Shown: positions 29,447 to 41,019 of the stretch, in pieces
How the letters are laid out: every line of letters starts with the position of its first letter
Numbering within the stretch: the first letter of the stretch is position 1
Origin: Natrinema salaciae
Lineage (GTDB): Archaea; Halobacteriota; Halobacteria; Halobacteriales; Natrialbaceae
Assembly: GCF_900110865.1 (NCBI RefSeq)
Contig: NZ_FOFD01000007.1
Coordinates: forward strand, 62,001-126,000
DNA: 64,000 bases
Direction of reading: 5' to 3'
The notes under the pieces: model-generated
Seen by the model: the letters and a program-made list of their open reading frames with translations, nothing else
Told to the model about the DNA's origin: nothing
Database searches by the model: none
Made by a program: the position numbers and the translations under genes

Positions 29447-30559
29447 CTACTCGAGCGGCCAGTAGTCAGCGTGCGCCTCGATCGCCCGGTCGACCGCCTG
29501 CTCGGCGAGCGCCGGGTTTCCTGCCATCCACGCGAACGGATCGTCGATCTCGGACTCGAGTCCGAGCGCGCCCTCGAGGACGCCGAGCGTCGCGTACGCG
29601 AGGTGGGTTATCTGATAGCCGCCCTCCTGTACGAGGGCGAGGGAGTCGTCCGCGTGCTCGGACGCCAGCGCCCGCGCCCGCTCGCCCAGGGACTCGAAGC
29701 CGGCTTTCGTGACGGTGTTCCGCCCCAGCGGATCCATCGTCCCCGGGTCCTGGCCCGCGCTCACCAGCAGGACGTCGGGATCGAACGCTCCCAGTACCGG
29801 CCCGACGAGTTCGTCCATCGCGTACCGGTACCCGTCGTCGCCGGTGCCGGCCGGGAGCGGAACGTTGACCGTGTACCCCTCGCCGTCGCCGGTCCCCTGC
29901 TCGGTGAGATCGCACGACTGCGGGTGGCTCACCTCGTCCCACGGCCAGTGGTCGTTGTGGAGGCTGACGAGGAGGACGTCGTCGCGGTCGTCGAAGATCT
30001 CCTGGGTCCCGTTCGCGTGGTGGACGTCCCAGTCGAGGACCGCCACGCGGTCCGCTCGCCCCGTCTCGAGCAAGTGGGCTGCGGCGACGGCGACGTTGTT
30101 GAAAAAGCAAAAGCCGTCGCTCTGGGACGACTGCGCGTGGTGGCCGCTCGGCCGGACGAGCGCGTACGGGAGCGCCGAGGTTCCGGGGTCGGCCGCGTGT
30201 TCGGCGGCGGCGATCGCTCCGCCAGCGGCGGTCGCCGCGGCGCGATACGTTTCCGCGTTGCCGCCCGTTTCCGCCGTGAGCCGACCGCCGCCGTCGTCGG
30301 CCCAGGAGCGAACCGCCTCGACGTACGACGCGGCGTGAACGCGGGTCAGTTCGGTTTCGGTCGCCGGCTCGATGTCGGCCCAGGTCGTCCGATCGCCGAG
30401 CTCGCTCCGGAGGATGGACCGGACGTTCTCGATGCGTTCGCGCCGATCCGGATGGGGCTCTCTCACCGCCAGCCGGCCGGTCCACGGCATCTCGAAATCG
30501 CCCGCGGGAGGAACGTGTGCCAGCGCCGCGTCGTCGTAATAGACGCACAGCTCGGTCAT
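29447..30559 (-). CDS. HDAC-family amidohydrolase (acetylpolyamine amidohydrolase-like)
   Basis: A 370-residue member of the arginase/deacetylase fold. The catalytic His pair is His140-His141 in PSGHHAQ. Zinc ligands are Asp178 and His180 in LDWDVHHANGTQEIF, and the third comes from the Asp in SAGQDPG. GFCFFNNVAVAA and EGGYQ are also conserved. Single-domain prokaryotic members include acetylpolyamine and acetoin-type deacetylases. The neighbourhood (Pot-type importer, aminotransferases, C-N hydrolase) favours deacetylation of N-acetylated amines. ATG 30559 (MTELCVYYDD) is chosen over upstream Arg-rich codons. It is on the same strand as the aminotransferase, 281 bases downstream of it, so it could share that transcript or have its own promoter. 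Confidence 0.9.
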   Translation of the reverse strand: MTELCVYYDDAALAHVPPAGDFEMPWTGRLAVREPHPDRRERIENVRSILRSELGDRTTWADIEPATETELTRVHAASYVEAVRSWADDGGGRLTAETGGNAETYRAAATAAGGAIAAAEHAADPGTSALPYALVRPSGHHAQSSQSDGFCFFNNVAVAAAHLLETGRADRVAVLDWDVHHANGTQEIFDDRDDVLLVSLHNDHWPWDEVSHPQSCDLTEQGTGDGEGYTVNVPLPAGTGDDGYRYAMDELVGPVLGAFDPDVLLVSAGQDPGTMDPLGRNTVTKAGFESLGERARALASEHADDSLALVQEGGYQITHLAYATLGVLEGALGLESEIDDPFAWMAGNPALAEQAVDRAIEAHADYWPLE

Positions 30560-30840: not shown

Positions 30841-32010
30841 TCACCACCAGCGGTTCTCGCGCAGTCGATCGACCGCCTCCCGAATCGTCTCCTCGTTTCG
30901 CGAGAAGGTAAACCGGATCCAGTCCGCGTCGGCGTCGGGGTCCGTGTAGAAGCTGCTTCCCGGCACGGCGGCGACGCCGGCCTCGCGGATGAGCCGATAG
31001 CAGAACTCGAGGTCGGCTTCGTCCGTCGGATACCGCGTCATCATGTAGTACGCGCCGTCGGGCGTGACGGGATCGAGCCCCGCCTCGACGAGCCCGTCGT
31101 AGAGCAGGTCGCGGCGCCGCTCGTAGGACGCGGACAGCTCCTCGTAGTACGAGTCGGGCAGCGAGAGCGCCTCGACGCCCGCCCGCTGGAACGGCGTCGG
31201 CGCGCAGATGCTCGTGTAGTCGTGGACCTTCCGGAGCTCCCGGGAGAGGTACTCGGGGGCGAGACAGAATCCGACGCGCCAGCCGGTGACGCTGAACGTC
31301 TTCGACATGCCGGTACAGACGACCGTCCGGTCGGCGAGGTCGCCGACTTCGACCGGGCTGAGGTAGTCGTCGTCGTAGACGATGTGCTCGTAAATCTCGT
31401 CGGTGAGCACGATCAGGTCGTGTTCGAAGACGATCTCCTCGATCCGCTCGAGTTCGTCGCGGGAGAACACCTTCCCCGTCGGATTCATCGGCGTGTTGAG
31501 CACGAGGATCCGGGCGTCTTCGGCCGCCGCCGCGAGCCGCTCGTAGTCGATCTCGAGGGTGTCGGTGATGTCGAGGGGGACGGCCGTCGCGCCGGCGAAC
31601 TGGCTGGCCGGGATGTAGCTCTCGTAGACCGGTTCGAAGTAGATCACCTCGTCGCCCGGTTCCGCGAGCGCGAGCATCGTCGACATGATCGCCTCGCTGG
31701 TGCCGCTCGTGATCGTCACCTCGGTCTCGGGGTCGTATTCGACGCCCTTCCAGTCGGCGTACCGCTCCGCGACCGCGTCCCGGAGATCCGGGAGCCCCCA
31801 GGTGATCGTGTACTGGCTCTCCGCGTCGATCGCGTCTTTGGCGGCCGCCTTGATTTCGACCGGCGTCTCGTCCGCATCGGGAATCCCCTGCGAGAGGTTG
31901 ATCGCGTCCTCACGGAGCGCTTCCCGAGTCATTTCGCGGATTACCGACTCGGCGACGCCGCTCGTTCGGGTCGTGCCGACGGCGTCGCTCGAAAGCGATC
32001 GCTCGCTCAT
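30841..32010 (-). CDS. PLP-dependent aminotransferase, class I/II
   Basis: A 389-residue fold-type I aminotransferase. Lys237 in CTGMSKTFSVTGWRVGF forms the PLP Schiff base. Asn176 (NTPMNPTGK) and Asp204 (LTDEIYEHIVYD) contact the cofactor, and GTSEAIMSTMLAL is the phosphate-binding turn. Arg in the final third (WIRFTFSR) should bind the substrate carboxylate. The ATG at 32010 (MSERSLSSDAVG) is favoured over one 93 bases upstream. Substrate preference (aspartate, aromatic, kynurenine or amine-derived) cannot be read out. It is divergent from an NrpR-type regulator with a 336-base control region, suggesting nitrogen-linked expression. Confidence 0.9.
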   Translation of the reverse strand: MSERSLSSDAVGTTRTSGVAESVIREMTREALREDAINLSQGIPDADETPVEIKAAAKDAIDAESQYTITWGLPDLRDAVAERYADWKGVEYDPETEVTITSGTSEAIMSTMLALAEPGDEVIYFEPVYESYIPASQFAGATAVPLDITDTLEIDYERLAAAAEDARILVLNTPMNPTGKVFSRDELERIEEIVFEHDLIVLTDEIYEHIVYDDDYLSPVEVGDLADRTVVCTGMSKTFSVTGWRVGFCLAPEYLSRELRKVHDYTSICAPTPFQRAGVEALSLPDSYYEELSASYERRRDLLYDGLVEAGLDPVTPDGAYYMMTRYPTDEADLEFCYRLIREAGVAAVPGSSFYTDPDADADWIRFTFSRNEETIREAVDRLRENRWW

Positions 32011-32210
32011 CGTTGCCTCACCGTTGCGTTCGCGTGCTGGGTCGTCAGGTTCGTGTCCATCGTTCGTTCCGTATTCGTCGATTGTATCGTAATCGCTCCG
32101 CAAACCGTCGCTCGAGGAGCGCGGTCCGAGCCGACACGACGCGGTCGTCGCGGCGCGACATCGCTGCGTCGTTCGTCGGCGGCAGTTTCCTTGTCATTTC
32201 TCCGCACGGC

Positions 32211-32254
32211 GGCAATGGGTTGCCATCAACTGTGTTGCCGTAGCTGGCATAAAA
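32211..32254. promoter_or_regulatory. GGCA/TGCC half-site cluster and TATA box before the first nrpR-like gene
   Basis: GGCA-ATGGGT-TGCC (32211-32224) is a 4-N6-4 palindrome. Eleven bases later TGCC-GTAGCT-GGCA (32236-32249) has the same geometry with the half-sites reversed, and it runs straight into CATAAAAG (32248-32255), a TATA-like element for the gene at 32347. The surrounding gap 32011-32346 has no other gene. The spacing is that of NrpR operators but with a different half-site, so autoregulation is a reasonable inference. Confidence 0.5.
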
Positions 32255-32346
32255 GCGTACGCACTGTGTCGACGCGGACGCGGACCGACGACGGGTCGGC
32301 CGCTGAAACCAAACCTTGGTGTGTGTTGTCTGTGAGTAAGACTCGT

Positions 32347-33387
32347 ATGGCACCGGAACTCGACAGGCGGACGTACGATCTGCTCCGTCTGGTCGACCGG
32401 CACGCCCCGATCGGCAGCATCCAGCTCGTCGAACTGATGCAGCTCCACGGGTACGATATCAAAGACCGGACGATCAGACTGACGCTTTCGGAGCTCGACG
32501 AACTCGGGCTCACGGAGAAAGTGCCCGGAAAGGGCCGCCGCCTCACCGACAGCGGACGCATGGAACTCGAGCAGGGGGACGTCAATAGCCGCCTCGGGCA
32601 GATCCGCGCGCGCATCTCCGCGCTCACGAGCCGCGTGAGCTACGACCCGATCGAGGACGCCGGGACCCTCGTCGCCGCCGCCGCGTTCATCGACGAGCCG
32701 GCGGTCGACGAGACCCTCCGGCTTCTCGAGCGGCTCGAATCGCTCCCGCTCGGTCCGGTTCCGGTCTCGCTCGAGGAGAGCGCCCCGGACGAGCCGGGGG
32801 AGTACCGGCTGCTCGCTCCCTCGAGCATCTCCCTCGACGGCGTCTTGCTCTCCCACGGGGTCGACGCAACCCTCTCGACGGCGGGCGTCCTCGAATACGA
32901 GCCCGTCGAAGCGCCGTCGGACGACGCCGACGCCGAACGCGGCGGTCGAATCGCGCGATACGTCGACGTGCTCAACGGCGAGGGGTCGTCGATCGACGTC
33001 ATTTCGCTGTTGATCGAGGCCGGCCGAAGCGACGTCGCGAGCATCATCGAGGATGGCGACACCGGCCTCGTCATCGGTGACGATCGCGAATTCCCGATCA
33101 ACAGGTACGAGGAAGCCCGGGATCTGGTCCACTCGAGTCGCGAGTCGCTCGGCGGGGCCCTCGACTTTCGACGACCGCGCGAACAGGACCACCACCCCAG
33201 CGGCAACTCCGCGTGGGCGTTCGGCTCGATCACGTACGTCGGGACCGGTGAGCTCCTGTTGACGACGCTCAACGAGTACGGCCTCTCCGACTCGTGGGAA
33301 ACGCTGTACGGAACGGTTGCGAGAAAAGAACTCGAGCCGGTCGGGGCGGCTCGCGCGCCGCCGCTGGACCACTACTCGAGGTCGTAG
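32347..33387 (+). CDS. NrpR-type transcriptional regulator, paralogue 1
   Basis: The 346-residue protein starts MAPELDRRTYDLLRLV. Residues 5-75 form the winged helix of NrpR (PIGSIQLVELMQLHGYDIKDRTIRLTLSELDELGLTEKVPGKGRRLTDSG). The rest is one NRD (DUF128) ligand-binding domain, with LDGVLLSHGVDA, SIDVISLLIEAGRSDVASII and SLGGALDFRRPR. In methanogens NrpR represses nitrogen genes and is released by 2-oxoglutarate. Having one NRD means it would bind DNA as an oligomer. Its 3' end overlaps the end of the carbon-nitrogen hydrolase gene on the other strand by 16 bases. It is divergent from the class I aminotransferase, its likely target. The effector here may be 2-oxoglutarate or an amine. Confidence 0.88.
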   Translation: MAPELDRRTYDLLRLVDRHAPIGSIQLVELMQLHGYDIKDRTIRLTLSELDELGLTEKVPGKGRRLTDSGRMELEQGDVNSRLGQIRARISALTSRVSYDPIEDAGTLVAAAAFIDEPAVDETLRLLERLESLPLGPVPVSLEESAPDEPGEYRLLAPSSISLDGVLLSHGVDATLSTAGVLEYEPVEAPSDDADAERGGRIARYVDVLNGEGSSIDVISLLIEAGRSDVASIIEDGDTGLVIGDDREFPINRYEEARDLVHSSRESLGGALDFRRPREQDHHPSGNSAWAFGSITYVGTGELLLTTLNEYGLSDSWETLYGTVARKELEPVGAARAPPLDHYSRS

Positions 33388-34220
33388 ACGTCCGGCCGGC
33401 GGTCCGCGAGGGCGTCGTCGCGATCCGTCAGCGCCTTGCGCCGCGCTCGCCGGAGGTCGCAGTCGGCGGCGAGCGCGTGCTCACCCGTCCGCGGAGCGGG
33501 GCCCGCGACCGGCACGCCGTTCGGATCGACGATGACGCTCTGCCCCTCGAACGAGGTTCCGCGTTCGGTTCCCGCGCGATCGGCACAGGCCACGAACACG
33601 CGGTTCGCGTTGGCGTGTGCGACCGTCTGATGGACGCCCATCGTCCAGCCGGCGGGCCGTTCGTCGCCCGCCGTCCCGTCGTCACCCGCCGGCTCGGGAA
33701 CCCAGTTCGTCGGCACGGCGACGAGGTCGGCACCGGCTCGAGCCTGCGAGATCGTCTGTTCCGGAAACCAGAGGTCGTTGCAGATCTGCACGCCGAGCCG
33801 GCCGAACGGCGTCTCGAAGACCGGGACGTCGTCGCCGGCCGCGAACCATCGCTTCTCCTCGTTCCAGCGGTGGACCTTTCGGTAGACTCCCTCGACGCCG
33901 TCGGGCGAAACCACCAGCGCGCTGTTGTAGAACGCGTCGTCGTCGGCCTCGGCGAACCCGCCCACGATCCACGTGCCGGTCTCGGCGGCGACGGCCGCCC
34001 AGGCCCGGCCGGTCGGACCGTCGCGCGGTTCGGCCACGGCCGCGAGTTCGTCGGTCGACTCGAACACGTAGCCCGTGGTCGCGAGCTCCGGCAGCACGAC
34101 GAGATCGGCGTCGGCGTTCTCCCGGACGGCGTCGACGGTTCGGTCCCGATTGGCCTCGACGGCCCCGAATTCCGGGACCGTCTGTGCGACGACGATCCTG
34201 GCGTCGGCCGGCGAACTCAC
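33372..34220 (-). CDS. Carbon-nitrogen hydrolase (nitrilase superfamily)
   Basis: A 282-residue nitrilase-superfamily enzyme with its catalytic triad intact: Glu45 (LPELATTGY), Lys115 (YRKVHRW) and Cys147 (VQICNDLWFPE). Members cleave amides such as N-carbamoylputrescine, omega-amides or N-carbamoyl amino acids. The start is GTG at 34220, which overlaps the TGA of the fused permease gene (GTGA at 34217-34220). This makes it the last gene of the PotD-PotA-PotBC operon and places its substrate among the imported compounds or their breakdown products. No signal peptide, so it acts in the cytosol. N-carbamoylputrescine amidase or an amidase releasing ammonia are leading but unproven options. Confidence 0.9.
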   Translation of the reverse strand: MSSPADARIVVAQTVPEFGAVEANRDRTVDAVRENADADLVVLPELATTGYVFESTDELAAVAEPRDGPTGRAWAAVAAETGTWIVGGFAEADDDAFYNSALVVSPDGVEGVYRKVHRWNEEKRWFAAGDDVPVFETPFGRLGVQICNDLWFPEQTISQARAGADLVAVPTNWVPEPAGDDGTAGDERPAGWTMGVHQTVAHANANRVFVACADRAGTERGTSFEGQSVIVDPNGVPVAGPAPRTGEHALAADCDLRRARRKALTDRDDALADRRPDVYDLE

Positions 34221-36091
34221 TCCCAGATCCCTCCGGACATGCGCTCGATCGCGGTCATCACGACGACCGTGAGCGCGATGAAGACCACGCTCGCCGCCGC
34301 GATCGTCGGCGGGTACGAGTAGCGCAGCTGGTTGAAGATCTGTATCGGGATCGTGTCCACGAGGAACAGCGACAGCAGCCACGCGATGATGTACTCGTTC
34401 AGCGAGAGGATGAACGCGAACAGCGCGCCGGAGATCACGTTCGCCCGCAACAGCGGGTACGTGATCGTGCGGATCGTTCGCACCGGCGACGCGCCGAGGT
34501 TCATCGCGGCTTCCTCGTAGGTTCGATCGATCTCGCCGAGTCCCTGCGAGATCAGGATGAACGGGAACGGCGCGTAGAAGATCCCGTGGGCGACGATGAT
34601 GCTCAGCTGAGAGCCGGCGAAGCCGATCTCCAGGAAGAACACGAGGAAGGCCACGCCGATGATCACCGGCGGAACCAGAATCGGCAGGACGCCGAGCGTT
34701 CCGAAGATGGCCCCGAGCCGGTAGTCGAACCGATCCAGTGCGAACGCGAGGGTTCCACCGATCGACGTACTGAGCAGCGCTGCAGCCGATGCGATCGTGA
34801 GGCTGTTGATCAGCGCGATCAGCCACGACGAGTCAGTGAAGAACTCGCCGTACCACTGCAACGAGAACCCGCCCGGCGGGAACGTCAGGAACTGCTCGGG
34901 AGTGAACGAGACGGCGACGATGATCCCGAGGGGAGCGGCGATGTACACCATGACGGCCGCCACGTACAGGCGGAAACTGACCCACGTTATCGACTCTCTG
35001 GTCGTCGAATCGACCGACGTCACCAGCGAATTCACGGCGCTCGAGATCGCACCGGCCGCCCCGGCGAGACCCGTCCGTTCGGCCGCGGCGGCGACACCGC
35101 GGCGGGCGCGCGCCCCGATACCGGTGGCGTTCGCGGCCGCCGTCGCGTCGTCCGATCCGCTGTCGACGGTCTCTATCTCCTCCGTTCCGCCGAGGCTCGC
35201 GGTCGTGACGCCGGTGAACCGAACGAACACCCAGAGGAACGCGAGCACGACGGCGATCAGCCCGATGCTCATCGCGGCCCCGAACGGGTAGTTGCTCTCG
35301 CTCATGATCTGCTGTTCGATCAGCACCGGCAGGGTCCGCTGTGCGGAACTTCCGAGGAGCCGCGGCAGCACGTACGACCCGAGTGCCAGGATGAAGACGA
35401 GCGCGGTGCCGCTGGTGATCCCGTGTTTCGACAGCGGGAGCGTCACCCGGCGGAACGTCGTAGCCGGTCCCGCACCGAGGTTCTTCGACGCCTCGAGCAG
35501 CTCGCCGTCGATGTTCCGAATGCTGCTGTAGAGCGTGAGTATCATGAACGGCAGGAAGACGTACACCATACCGACGATCAACCCCCAGTAGCCGGGGTAG
35601 AACGACTGGTGTTGGGAGAGGACCCCGGTGGCGACGCCGATCGAACTCAGGATCCCGTTGGAGGCCAGAATGACCTGCCACGCGTACGCCCTGATGACGT
35701 AGGTTACCCACAGCGAAGAGATGATCGTGATCAGCAGCGCGCTCCGCAGCCACGGTCGCCGCATCTGGGCGAGGTAGTACGCCATCGGATAGCCAAGCAG
35801 CAGCGAGATGACGGCCGTTACCAGCGAAATTTCGACCGTTAGCCACAGCTGCCCGAGATAGAGACTGCTCGTGAGAAAGCGCGTGTAGTTCTCGAGCGTG
35901 AACCCCATCTCGTACTGGCCGCCGGGAATGTTGACCCAGAAGCTGAACACCACCAGCATGGCCAGCGGCACGAGAAAGATCGCGACGAGCCAGCTCAGCG
36001 GGTACGACAGCACGTACCACTTCGCGTTCGCTCTGAGCCCCGCCCGTCCGGCCTCGCTGCCGTCGTCGGTCGCGGATGTCTCGGTCGCCAT
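34217..36091 (-). CDS. Fused ABC permease, PotB and PotC halves in one chain
   Basis: This 624-residue protein contains two complete binding-protein-dependent permease domains. The first (about 25-315) ends with the EAA-loop EASKNLGAGPATTFRRVTLP near residue 205, and the second (about 380-620) has EEAAMNLGASPVRTIRTITYP near residue 530. A charged, Ala-rich linker with IETVDSGSDDATAAANATG joins them. In bacteria these are normally two proteins, PotB and PotC. The fusion supplies both membrane halves of a spermidine/putrescine-type importer. The gene begins one base after the TAG of potA and its stop overlaps the GTG of the C-N hydrolase, a tight operon. Confidence 0.9.
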   Translation of the reverse strand: MATETSATDDGSEAGRAGLRANAKWYVLSYPLSWLVAIFLVPLAMLVVFSFWVNIPGGQYEMGFTLENYTRFLTSSLYLGQLWLTVEISLVTAVISLLLGYPMAYYLAQMRRPWLRSALLITIISSLWVTYVIRAYAWQVILASNGILSSIGVATGVLSQHQSFYPGYWGLIVGMVYVFLPFMILTLYSSIRNIDGELLEASKNLGAGPATTFRRVTLPLSKHGITSGTALVFILALGSYVLPRLLGSSAQRTLPVLIEQQIMSESNYPFGAAMSIGLIAVVLAFLWVFVRFTGVTTASLGGTEEIETVDSGSDDATAAANATGIGARARRGVAAAAERTGLAGAAGAISSAVNSLVTSVDSTTRESITWVSFRLYVAAVMVYIAAPLGIIVAVSFTPEQFLTFPPGGFSLQWYGEFFTDSSWLIALINSLTIASAAALLSTSIGGTLAFALDRFDYRLGAIFGTLGVLPILVPPVIIGVAFLVFFLEIGFAGSQLSIIVAHGIFYAPFPFILISQGLGEIDRTYEEAAMNLGASPVRTIRTITYPLLRANVISGALFAFILSLNEYIIAWLLSLFLVDTIPIQIFNQLRYSYPPTIAAASVVFIALTVVVMTAIERMSGGIWE

Positions 36092-37186
36092 CTATTCCTC
36101 CACGATTCGGCAGTCGTCGGGATCGACGCGAACAGTCGCTCGCTGCCCCGACGATCGCTGGTTCAGGCCGCTCCGGCGAACGACGACGAGCTCTCTGCCC
36201 GCCTCGGTCTCGAGCCGGAACTCGACGCTGCTGCCGAGGTGCCGTTTGAACGTGATTTCGCCCTCGAAGACGTTCTCGACGCTGCCCGTCGAGCGGGTCC
36301 CGCCGTCGGCGCTCGCGGTCCCGAACTCGAACCGCTCCGGTCGAACGACGACCGAAACGTCCGCGCCGGGCTCGATCCCGGGGCGGCTCTTCGACCGAAC
36401 GGTCACGTCTCCGCAGTCGACGGTCGCGTACCCGTCGTCGACCGCCGTCACCGAGCCGTCGAAGATGTTCGCGGTGCCGAGGAAGTCCGCGACGAATCGC
36501 GTGTCGGGATCGTTGTACACTTGGTCCGGCGGGCCGACCTGTTCGAACCGGCCGTCGTTCATCACGGCGAGTCGATCGGACATCGTCAGCGCCTCTTCCT
36601 GGTTGTGCGTGACGAAGACGGTCGTGATCCCGATCTCCTGCTGGATTCGGCGCAACTCGACTTGCATTTGTTCTCTGAGTTGCTTGTCGAGACTGGCCAG
36701 GGGCTCGTCGAGCAACAGCGCCTTCGGGCGCGGTGCCAGCGCTCGAGCGAGCGCGATCCGCTGTTGCTGTCCGCCGGAGAGCTGATCCGGCGTTCGATCG
36801 CCGACGCCGGGCAATTCGACCAGCTCGAGCATTTCGGCCACTCGCGCGTCGATCTCCTCGTCGGTGTACTCGCCCGACGCTTCCATGCCGTACGCGATGT
36901 TCTCGTGGATGGTCATGTGCGGGAACAGCGCGAAGTCCTGAAACACCATCCCCGTGTCGCGCTCGTACGGCGGCGCGTCGGTCACGTCCTCGCCGTCGAT
37001 GCGGATCGACCCATCCGTCGGCGTTTCGAAGCCGGCGATCGTCCGCAGCGTCGTGGTCTTGCCACAGCCCGACGGCCCCACGAGCGTGACGAACTCCCCG
37101 CTCTCGATGTCGATGTCGACCCCCTTGACGGCGAGGACGCCACCCGGATAGCGCTTCGAGACCCCGGTGAGTGAGATCCCGCTCAT
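36092..37186 (-). CDS. potA: ABC transporter ATPase, PotA type
   Basis: A 364-residue ATPase: Walker A GPSGCGKTTT at 37-46, Q-loop in VFQDFALFPHMT, signature LSGGQQQR at 136-143, Walker B ALLLDEP ending with Asp160, and the switch His in VFVTHNQEEA. After residue 240 comes a TOBE domain with DVSVVVRPERFEF, as in PotA, FbpC and related importers. It energises uptake by the fused permease and the PotD-like binding protein. ATG 37186 overlaps the TGA of the binding-protein gene (ATGA at 37183-37186). PotA-type ATPases also serve iron or phosphonate importers, so the substrate assignment relies on the neighbours. Confidence 0.92.
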   Translation of the reverse strand: MSGISLTGVSKRYPGGVLAVKGVDIDIESGEFVTLVGPSGCGKTTTLRTIAGFETPTDGSIRIDGEDVTDAPPYERDTGMVFQDFALFPHMTIHENIAYGMEASGEYTDEEIDARVAEMLELVELPGVGDRTPDQLSGGQQQRIALARALAPRPKALLLDEPLASLDKQLREQMQVELRRIQQEIGITTVFVTHNQEEALTMSDRLAVMNDGRFEQVGPPDQVYNDPDTRFVADFLGTANIFDGSVTAVDDGYATVDCGDVTVRSKSRPGIEPGADVSVVVRPERFEFGTASADGGTRSTGSVENVFEGEITFKRHLGSSVEFRLETEAGRELVVVRRSGLNQRSSGQRATVRVDPDDCRIVEE

Positions 37187-38289
37187 TCGCCGACGATGAA
37201 CTCCTCCCAGCGTTCGTTGACCCAGTCTTCCTCCTCGACGTAGAGCTCGTAGCTCGGGACGATGGCTTCGTCCGGCCCCGGACCCGCGATCTTCTCGTAG
37301 GTCTCGTCGTCGATCTCGGAGTGCTCGCGATCGATCGTCGGGCTCGTGTAGAGGTTCTCGGCGACGCGGTCCTGCACTTCGGGTCGGCTCGCGTAATCGA
37401 TGAACTGCTGCGCCTCGTCTTTCAGCTCCGAGGTCTCGAGCGTCACCCAGTGCCCGGAGTCGAGGATCGATCCCTCCGAGACGAAGTTCGACTGCACCGG
37501 CGCGCCGTCGTCCTGCATGACCAGCGTGATGTCGCTGTACAGCATGCCACCGGGTACCTCGCCGTCGCGGAGCCGCTGCTGGAACTCCGCTTCGTTCTCG
37601 TACCAGAAGTTGGCCTGGGGCTTCACTTCCTCGAGCTTCTCGAACACCTCGAGCACGCCGTCCTGGTCGGTCAGGATCTCCTGTCCGTCGAAGAACACCT
37701 CCGCCGTGACGTCGAGCAGGAACGAGTTCGATGCGTAGCCCAGCAGGCCGAGCTGGTCCTCGTACTGGTCGTCCCACAGCGCTTCCCACGTGTCGATCGG
37801 TTCCTCGATCTCCTCGGTGTTCTGAACGAGGTTGATGTACCACGACAGCGCACCAACGCTCGAGATACCCCCGTCGGCTTCGCCGACGAGGTCGTCGCTG
37901 ATGTACTCGAGGTTCTCGAAGTCGCCCTCGTCCCAGATGTGCCAGAGATCGGAGTTGAGGCCCTGGAGGACCCCCGTCTGAGCCATAATCGCGACGTCGA
38001 CGGGCGCTTCGCCCGCCTGAACGCCGTTCTCGTACTGGGTGAGTGCTTCCTCGGAAGTGGGCTGGGCCTCCGACTTGACCTCGAAGTCGACCTCCTCGGT
38101 AAACGGACCGAACAGGTGTTCGTCCATCACCTCCTGGAAGACGCCGCCGTAAACGGCTACCGTTAGCGCGTCGTCACCGCTCTCGAGAAAGCCCGTACAT
38201 CCTGCGAGTCCGGCCAGCGAAATCGCGCTTCCGCTGGCTGCGGTCGTTCGAAGGAATTTCCGTCGTCCGTGCGTGTACTTACCTGGCAT
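37183..38289 (-). CDS. potD: Tat-exported substrate-binding lipoprotein, PotD type
   Basis: 368 residues from the ATG at 38289. The start holds a twin-arginine signal (HGRRKFLRTTAASG) and a lipobox LAGC with Cys31, so the mature protein is a lipid-anchored binding protein outside the cell. The fold belongs to extracellular solute-binding family 1: LTVAVYGGVFQEVMDEHLF at the first strand, DVAIMAQTGVL, WYINLVQN, and a late acidic, Trp-rich end. Acidic pocket residues would suit a cationic amine such as putrescine or spermidine. The ATG falls inside a GGCA-N6-TGCC palindrome. An ATG 54 bases further upstream is a weaker choice as it would precede the Tat motif with a charged leader. Confidence 0.88.
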   Translation of the reverse strand: MPGKYTHGRRKFLRTTAASGSAISLAGLAGCTGFLESGDDALTVAVYGGVFQEVMDEHLFGPFTEEVDFEVKSEAQPTSEEALTQYENGVQAGEAPVDVAIMAQTGVLQGLNSDLWHIWDEGDFENLEYISDDLVGEADGGISSVGALSWYINLVQNTEEIEEPIDTWEALWDDQYEDQLGLLGYASNSFLLDVTAEVFFDGQEILTDQDGVLEVFEKLEEVKPQANFWYENEAEFQQRLRDGEVPGGMLYSDITLVMQDDGAPVQSNFVSEGSILDSGHWVTLETSELKDEAQQFIDYASRPEVQDRVAENLYTSPTIDREHSEIDDETYEKIAGPGPDEAIVPSYELYVEEEDWVNERWEEFIVGE

Positions 38290-38298
38290 TACCTTGCC
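38285..38298. promoter_or_regulatory. GGCA-N6-TGCC palindrome across the potD start codon
   Basis: GGCA-TTACCT-TGCC has the same 4-N6-4 form and half-sites as the element at 32211-32224. It covers the ATG of potD, where a bound repressor would block transcript start or early elongation. A minus-strand TATA-like TTTTATGTATG lies at about 38326-38336. The gap between potD and the second nrpR-like gene is otherwise empty. Confidence 0.45.
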
Positions 38299-38434
38299 AC
38301 CGTTACTCTCCCATCTCCCTTTCTCATACATAAAACTTCCCACGTGACCGCGATATTCTGGTCATGTTTTACACACAACTGGATGAACCTGTCCCGATAC
38401 ACGATTATTCGACTGAATAGAAGACAGACGTAGA

Positions 38435-39449: not shown

Positions 39450-40853
39450 CTACTGCTGTGCCGCCGCTAAATGGGTGGCGAGATCCGCGAACGCGTCGAC
39501 GTGGGCGTCGATCTCGTCGGCGGTGTGCTGGACGCTGATCGTCCACTGCTGGGAGGCGTCGTGGGGGTGCGGGATGACGCCCCTGTTCAGCATGCCGAAC
39601 CAGTACGCCTCGTGGAACGGTTCGTCGACGGCCGCCCAGTCGCGGAACGTCCGGATCGGCTCCTCGGTGAAGTAAACCATTCCCTGCGAGCCGACGCCGG
39701 TCACCTGCGCCTCGAGCCCTTCGTCCTCGATCACGTCCCGGTAGCCGGCCGCGAGGCGATCGGCGAGGTCGGTCACGCGGTCGTACGCCTCGTCGGTGAG
39801 GACGTCGCGCAGCGTGATACCGACGGCCCGCAGCGCCAGCGGATTCCCGTTGTACGTCCCGTAGTGTGCCGCACCGGTCGCGACGCCCTCGTCGAGATCG
39901 GCCGCGATCCGGTCCATGATCTCGCGGCGGCCGCCGAACGCGCCGACGGGGTACCCGCCGCCGATGGCCTTCGCCAGCGCGACGAGATCGGGCTGCACAC
40001 CGTAGTACTCCGCCCCGCCGCCGGGCGCGAGCTTGACCCCGGTTTTCACCTCGTCGAAGATCAGGACGACGTTGTACTCGTCGGCGAGCGTTCGCAACCG
40101 CTCGAGGTACCCGTCGACGGGTTCGACGAGCCCGAGGTTGAGACAGGCCGGTTCGACGAGAATGGCGGCCACCTCGCGGCCGTGCTCGCGGAGCAGTCGC
40201 TCGACGCTCTCGGCGTCGTTGTACTGCGCCAGCAACACGTCGTCGGGGACCGAGTCGGGGATGCCCTGGGATTCCGCGACGCGACACGGGTCCGACGCGG
40301 GGCCCGCTCGCTCGAGCGGTGGCATCTTGCTCACCAGGGCCGGGTCGTGCGCCCCGTGATAGGCCCCCTCCATGCGGATGATCTTCTCCCGACCGGTGTA
40401 GGCCCGTGCCAGCCGCGTCGCGTGCATGACCGACTCGGTCCCGCTGTTGGTAAAGCGAACCCGCTCGATCGCGTCCCAGCGGTCGATCAGCGGTTCGGCC
40501 GCGAACTCGATCAGTTCGTTCGGGCGGGTGTACAGCGTCCCGCGGTCGATCTGCTCGATCACGCCCGCCGATAGTTTCGGATGCGTGTGCCCGACGAGCT
40601 GCGTTCCGTTGTTGAGCGCGAAGTCGAGGTACTCGTTCCCGTCGACGTCGTAGAGAGACGCCCCCGCCGCGCGGTCCGCGTGAACTGGGTAGGGGTCGTA
40701 CGCTCGGAACGTGCTACAGACGCCGGCCGGGACCAGTTCCCGGAGATCGTCGGCCATGGCCGCCGAATTCGGCGTCCGTTCTCGATAGCGATCGTACTCC
40801 CTCGAGAGCAGTTCTTCCGCCAGCGCGTCGGTGGTCGATATCGGATTGTCCAT
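39450..40853 (-). CDS. Class-III aminotransferase, HemL-like
   Basis: A 467-residue PLP enzyme resembling glutamate-1-semialdehyde aminotransferases. Lys295 in VALAKAIGGGYPVGAFGG binds PLP, Asp267 in LIFDEVKTGVKL contacts the ring, and NSGTESVMHATRLARAYTGREKI is the phosphate-binding region. The opening VPAGVCSTFRAYDPYPVHA is typical of the HemL-like branch used in catabolic aminotransferases rather than heme synthesis. The substrate could be a diamine, a beta- or gamma-amino acid, or an aldehyde derived from the imported amine. It heads a two-gene operon with NrpR paralogue 2, and its ATG lies 11 bases from a GGAA-N6-TTCC palindrome. Confidence 0.9.
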   Translation of the reverse strand: MDNPISTTDALAEELLSREYDRYRERTPNSAAMADDLRELVPAGVCSTFRAYDPYPVHADRAAGASLYDVDGNEYLDFALNNGTQLVGHTHPKLSAGVIEQIDRGTLYTRPNELIEFAAEPLIDRWDAIERVRFTNSGTESVMHATRLARAYTGREKIIRMEGAYHGAHDPALVSKMPPLERAGPASDPCRVAESQGIPDSVPDDVLLAQYNDAESVERLLREHGREVAAILVEPACLNLGLVEPVDGYLERLRTLADEYNVVLIFDEVKTGVKLAPGGGAEYYGVQPDLVALAKAIGGGYPVGAFGGRREIMDRIAADLDEGVATGAAHYGTYNGNPLALRAVGITLRDVLTDEAYDRVTDLADRLAAGYRDVIEDEGLEAQVTGVGSQGMVYFTEEPIRTFRDWAAVDEPFHEAYWFGMLNRGVIPHPHDASQQWTISVQHTADEIDAHVDAFADLATHLAAAQQ

Positions 40854-40860
40854 CGGATAT

Positions 40861-40880
40861 ACCGGAATTGTATTTCCGGT
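40861..40880. promoter_or_regulatory. NrpR-type operator, site 1
   Basis: The bases form a near-perfect palindrome whose core is GGAA (40864-40867), TTGTAT, TTCC (40874-40877), flanked by ACC and GGT. GGAA-N6-TTCC is the operator form described for methanogen NrpR. It sits just upstream of the class-III aminotransferase start, where a bound protein would occlude the transcript start. NrpR paralogue 2, encoded in the same operon, is the obvious candidate binder. Confidence 0.7.
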
Positions 40881-41000
40881 CTGTACGTCGAGTCAGTGCG
40901 AGAGGTAATAAATCTACTTGCCCAAACAGGCGAATATCTCGACGAGGACCCCTCATAACTGGTGGCGCTGCGCGATCGGCGTGCCACCACCGTCTAAAAT

Positions 41001-41019
41001 ACGGAACTGTCTTTCCGGT
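41001..41019. promoter_or_regulatory. NrpR-type operator, site 2
   Basis: GGAA (41003-41006), CTGTCT, TTCC (41013-41016): same core as site 1, with spacer pattern N-TGT-N-T shared by both. It lies 150 bases before the ATG-proximal site on the aminotransferase side and 148 bases before the histidine kinase start. Two sites allow DNA looping or cooperative repression. The 40854-41150 gap holds no other feature. Confidence 0.65.

Follow-up and report, generated by a model that had tools for sequence, protein, structure and literature searches.

A conserved palindrome at the aminotransferase-nrpR2 promoter of Natrinema salaciae as a predicted NrpR2 operator, with variant sites at the paralogues

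The window, that is the whole stretch of 64,000 nucleotides of Natrinema salaciae DNA analysed here, carries the genes and predicted sites listed in Table 1. AT3 and nrpR2 are separated by a 7-nt gap and form an operon, and the transporter operon lies downstream of it in a gene order that is retained in orthologous loci. Across these loci, the neighbours include an agmatinase-like ureohydrolase (in nearly all), the polyamine-type transporter, the amidohydrolase, aminotransferases and a histone-deacetylase-like gene, a content which suggests that the cluster uses amino, guanidino or polyamine nitrogen. The best NCBIfam matches of AT3 fall under their cut-offs. A third paralogue, nrpR3, is located about 90 kb off on the same contig. 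The ureohydrolase gene is found between AT1 and nrpR1 in three loci (L038, L039, L070); it is absent from this interval here (32010-32347), and this genome has a copy at the nrpR3 locus (L040:6823-7824). A histone-deacetylase-like gene, possibly encoding an acetylpolyamine amidohydrolase, occupies 29450-30553 on the minus strand, and in L048, L052, L053 and L055 the homologous gene diverges from AT3.

Table 1. Genes and predicted regulatory sites of the cluster, numbered by position in the window.
Feature	Position	Strand	Basis
AT1, class-I aminotransferase, cluster edge	30841..32010	-	PF00155 E 3.7e-68; start codon picked by eye
GGCA-N6-TGCC site upstream of nrpR1	32211..32224	+	13/16 nrpR1 upstream regions
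nrpR1, convergent paralogue flanking the transporter operon	32347..33387	+	PF01995 E 4.7e-17, PF08461
Polyamine-type ABC transporter operon: solute-binding protein, ATPase, fused permeases, nitrilase-family amidohydrolase	33372..38289	-	
TGGCA-N6-TGCCA, predicted second operator type, overlapping the transporter operon ATG	38284..38299	-	Conserved in 14/14 loci
nrpR2, winged helix plus one NrpR regulatory domain, 335 aa	38435..39442	-	PF08461, PF01995; PDB 3nek
AT3, class-III aminotransferase (glutamate-1-semialdehyde aminomutase-like), first operon gene	39450..40853	-	Pfam PF00202 E 1.6e-57
Site 1, predicted NrpR2 operator ACCGGAA-N6-TTCCGGT	40861..40880	-	Genome uniqueness, 16-species conservation, presence/absence test
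TATA-like box of the AT3-nrpR2 operon, TTTATTA, predicted	40906..40912	-	Read from sequence
Site 2, distal copy TACGGAA-N6-TTCCGGT, 2 mismatches to the extended site	41000..41019		Distal-copy statistics

The product of nrpR2 belongs to the NrpR family, scoring 81 bits against the NrpR regulatory domain (PF01995; curated cut-off 25) and matching HTH_12 (PF08461, E 2e-12) with its N-terminal winged helix. In the AlphaFold model (mean pLDDT 86), helices span residues 24-33 and 40-52, and the wing strands span 56-59 and 63-66. The effector-domain fold is like that of the NrpR-like protein MJ0159 of Methanocaldococcus jannaschii (PDB 3nek; profile E 3e-8; Foldseek E 7e-12, TM 0.76 on the target), although identity is about 16% and the match spans just the regulatory part of NrpR2. 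Residues 33-77, within the winged helix, resemble archaeal ribosomal protein S19e (profile E about 1e-5).

Two GGAA-N6-TTCC palindromes had been reported next to this nrpR gene, and reading of the sequence located both, with the core of site 1, GGAATTGTATTTCC, at 40864-40877 and that of site 2, GGAACTGTCTTTCC, at 41003-41016. Both sit at the AT3 promoter, and nrpR2 starts 1.4 kb downstream in the same operon. Site 1 is longer than first noted, being a perfect palindrome of 20 bp with 7-bp arms, and it lies between the TATA-like box and the AT3 ATG; orthologues show a TATA-like stretch at a comparable distance. The genome (4.86 Mb) has a single copy of the form CCGGAA-N6-TTCCGG, namely that in site 1, and a scan of the window for the extended motif with up to two mismatches returned sites 1 and 2 only. 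The bare GGAA-N6-TTCC core occurs three times in the window against 0.64 expected, a count that is reached by 4 of 100 shuffles and is weak evidence when taken alone. Genome-wide, its 81 copies compare with about 49 from the window shuffle rate scaled up, a frequency near chance, and bare-core counting was dropped as an uninformative operator marker. The reversed-pattern count for the bare core (8 sites) was set aside as an unsuitable control, given the bias in base order. The intergenic or coding labels given to one-mismatch sites are rough, as a simple gene caller skipped some genes.

Orthologous clusters were gathered by a genome search, a class-wide search and a scan of named genomes, which included Natrialba, Natrarchaeobius, Natronorubrum and Halobacterium bonnevillei. 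The proximal CGGAA-N6-TTCCG is kept at the equivalent place, within about 10 nt of the AT3 ATG, in all 16 species with the AT3-nrpR2 operon (the sixteenth being G132), a figure that does not amount to 16 independent events because all are Halobacteria and several, within Natrialba, are close relatives. This conservation bears out the proposal that site 1 is a candidate operator of the linked NrpR paralogue. By unbiased enumeration of every 5-mer half-site with spacers of 0-14 in 13 AT3 upstream regions, CGGAA-N6 was the top palindrome (13/13 regions), and in shuffles no pair exceeded two regions. Mean information reached 1.88 bits in the arm columns, compared with 0.60 in the spacer and 0.50 in the upstream flank. 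The spacer pattern N-TGT-N-T, to which the original prediction had drawn attention, is present in both copies of the window and is not kept in orthologues; since the spacer drifts while the arms are nearly invariant, it is taken as a coincidence. A further match, which many species have within the AT3 coding sequence at about 676 bp ahead of nrpR2, was rejected as an operator because the conserved protein stretch EPExxFL together with common codons accounts for it.

The sites might also act in the transcript, as RNA hairpins or terminators instead of DNA operators. Site 1 would fold as a 7-bp stem (-10.5 kcal/mol in a 46-nt stretch, z -1.5), and site 2 scores as terminator-like on the minus strand. 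Nevertheless, among 15 sequences no compensatory changes were found and the outer pairs break freely, the loop length is constant at 6, and the start codon is a long way downstream of the nrpR1 sites and of the distal AT3 sites. Because arm substitutions are never compensated, a role in RNA is most improbable, and the site is read as DNA.

The extended site goes together with the operon. ACCGGAA-N6-TTCCGG is found genome-wide in 14 of the 16 operon-bearing genomes versus 2 of 16 NrpR-less relatives, and the reversed pattern, used as a control, in none of the 32 genomes. The two operon-bearing exceptions (G394, G132) carry one-arm variants, TACGGAA or AGCGGAA, at the equivalent spot, and the three off-target copies are all within ORFs. 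Short palindromes are bound by many archaeal regulators, and another dimeric winged-helix regulator, encoded elsewhere, could in principle bind these palindromes, the linkage to NrpR being incidental. Such an explanation is improbable in view of this presence/absence pattern, of the published NrpR operator, whose geometry and core equal those of site 1 (PMC2723118), and of the recurrence of the site 1 geometry at all three NrpR paralogue loci, with an operator type that tracks the NrpR tree. Site 1 is thus very likely to be bound by the NrpR-type repressor that the operon itself encodes, although NrpR1 or NrpR3 might bind it as well.

At the paralogue loci, the sites at nrpR1, at the transporter operon and at nrpR3 have the half-site GGCA-N6-TGCC or a mixed one, with a flank that is usually AC and not GG; the AA core with GG flank is confined to the NrpR2 clade in a FastTree phylogeny of 52 proteins. 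Unbiased enumeration recovered GGCA-N6-TGCC at a fixed position over the ATG in 14 of 14 transporter promoters. The genome has exactly two copies of the longer TGGCA-N6-TGCCA, one at the transporter operon and one at an nrpR3-linked aminotransferase, and GGMA-N6-TKCC, mostly with an ACC flank, is present in 15 of 18 non-redundant nrpR3 loci. The sister NrpR repressors of the cluster seem to recognise a somewhat altered form of the site, each site type being assigned to its paralogue by linkage. The pattern GTGGCA-N6-TGCC was dropped as an uninformative marker, since its genome-wide count is about 5 per genome without enrichment in NrpR-positive genomes.

Site 2 is weaker than site 1 and its position is not conserved. 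Nonetheless, it represents a real class of distal sites, as 4 of 13 species (L048, L050, L055 and this genome) have another GGAA-N6-TTCC upstream of AT3 against 0.046 expected by chance, and none of 2000 shuffles reached four. The distance between distal and proximal copies varies from 106 to 171 bp, so that the distal site is regarded as a recurrent but not fixed auxiliary, and the likeliest role of site 2 is that of an auxiliary NrpR2 site specific to its lineage. In L048 and L055 the distal site is on the side of the divergent histone-deacetylase-like gene; on the same side of AT3, this genome has a PAS histidine kinase gene. The original prediction allowed site 2 to control this divergent kinase, and the site does fall within the intergenic region common to the kinase and AT3. 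This role is unlikely, given that the kinase adjoins AT3 in this genome only among the loci compared, that its ATG is about 135 bp from the site and that distal copies occur in other species which have no such kinase. The original observation holds, more strongly for site 1 and more weakly for the spacer and for site 2. On the minus strand, TATTTTAG follows site 2, and the terminator-like hairpin scored there is a weak one.

In Methanococcus maripaludis, the NrpR operator is GGAAN6TTCC and is found at nif, glnA and glnK-amtB (PMC2723118); the title of Lie et al. (2005), cited in that paper, names two operators at one promoter. The likeness in form to the methanogen operator, as first proposed, is thus confirmed. 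Both systems share the protein family (winged helix plus NrpR regulatory domain), the operator core and the half-site spacing, and GGAA-N6-TTCC stands at the regulated promoter in all 16 proximal sites, as it would in an NrpR system. However, the haloarchaeal proteins are short, have one regulatory domain and occur as three paralogues, the operator has a longer CC/GG flank for NrpR2 and GGCA-type half-sites for NrpR1, and NrpR2 is tied to a local catabolic cluster instead of a glnA/nif regulon. The family membership and the common core could be taken to mean that NrpR2, like its methanogen counterpart, represses nitrogen genes globally, with site 1 in one regulon with glnA and amt. In this genome, the methanogen-type operators at glnA and amt/glnK are missing, and the forecast of sites at these genes failed, since no GGMA-N6-TKCC was found within 1.5 kb of either of the two glnA copies or of amt. 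The extended site is present once per genome, strong NrpR matches were obtained in just 44 of 391 haloarchaeal genomes (weaker ones span the winged helix only), and a Haloferax volcanii study states that the master NrpR is not conserved in haloarchaea (PMC6801745). A global role for NrpR2 is accordingly very improbable.

We consider it likely, from the arrangement and conservation of these sites, that NrpR2 represses its own AT3-nrpR2 operon by binding site 1 as the operator and that the paralogues use variant sites. As the known family works as a dimeric repressor on half-sites one turn apart near the transcription start, we infer that an NrpR2 dimer would read both CCGGAA half-sites, which are spaced by one helical turn (10 bp, GGAA to TTCC), and, positioned just downstream of the TATA box, would block transcription until an effector releases it. 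NrpR1 probably governs the transporter/amidohydrolase operon and its own upstream region via GGCA-N6-TGCC, and NrpR3 would act through mixed GGMA-N6-TKCC sites flanked by ACC. Given one extended site per genome, NrpR2 seems to be devoted to the autoregulation of its operon, and the sister NrpRs on changed sites would make up a local repressor set, not a global nitrogen switch.

Autoregulated local catabolic repressors are a general kind, exemplified by bacterial GntR and LacI types. Like these, NrpR2 is encoded in an operon with a catabolic gene and has one predicted operator near the start, with a putative auxiliary distal operator in some species; unlike them, it belongs to another protein family and would act on an archaeal promoter. 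It is conceivable, and is offered here tentatively, that NrpR, a global nitrogen repressor by origin, has given rise in haloarchaea to several pathway-specific repressors, with operators that came to differ in half-site and flanks. On this reading, the effector might be an amino, guanidino or polyamine substrate of the cluster and not 2-oxoglutarate. If true, the operator forms would be CCGGAA for NrpR2 and GGCA or TGGMA for NrpR1/NrpR3, one base apart plus flanks, and several paralogues could therefore work side by side in a cell while hardly interfering with one another.

Little is understood of how haloarchaea regulate their nitrogen metabolism, and the present work supplies concrete predicted operators, together with a paralogue set that has distinguishable predicted DNA targets and candidate specificity residues. 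These residues are TERTVRxTLADLD plus a GGKGR wing in NrpR2 and KDRTIRLTLSELD plus a PGKGR-type wing in NrpR1. The candidate operators and residues thus leave a DNA-recognition code open to simple binding assays. At the nrpR3 locus of this genome, a single intergenic region (L040:9180-9345) has two different NrpR-type sites: TGGCA-N6-TGCCA lies at the start of the divergent aminotransferase and GGAA-N6-TTCCACC upstream of nrpR3, and both sites are retained in L041, L042 and L044. Hybrid operators that pair a GGAA with a TGCC half-site, and so are intermediate in type, were also observed upstream of nrpR genes in L043, L046, L047 (nrpR1), L058 and L061.
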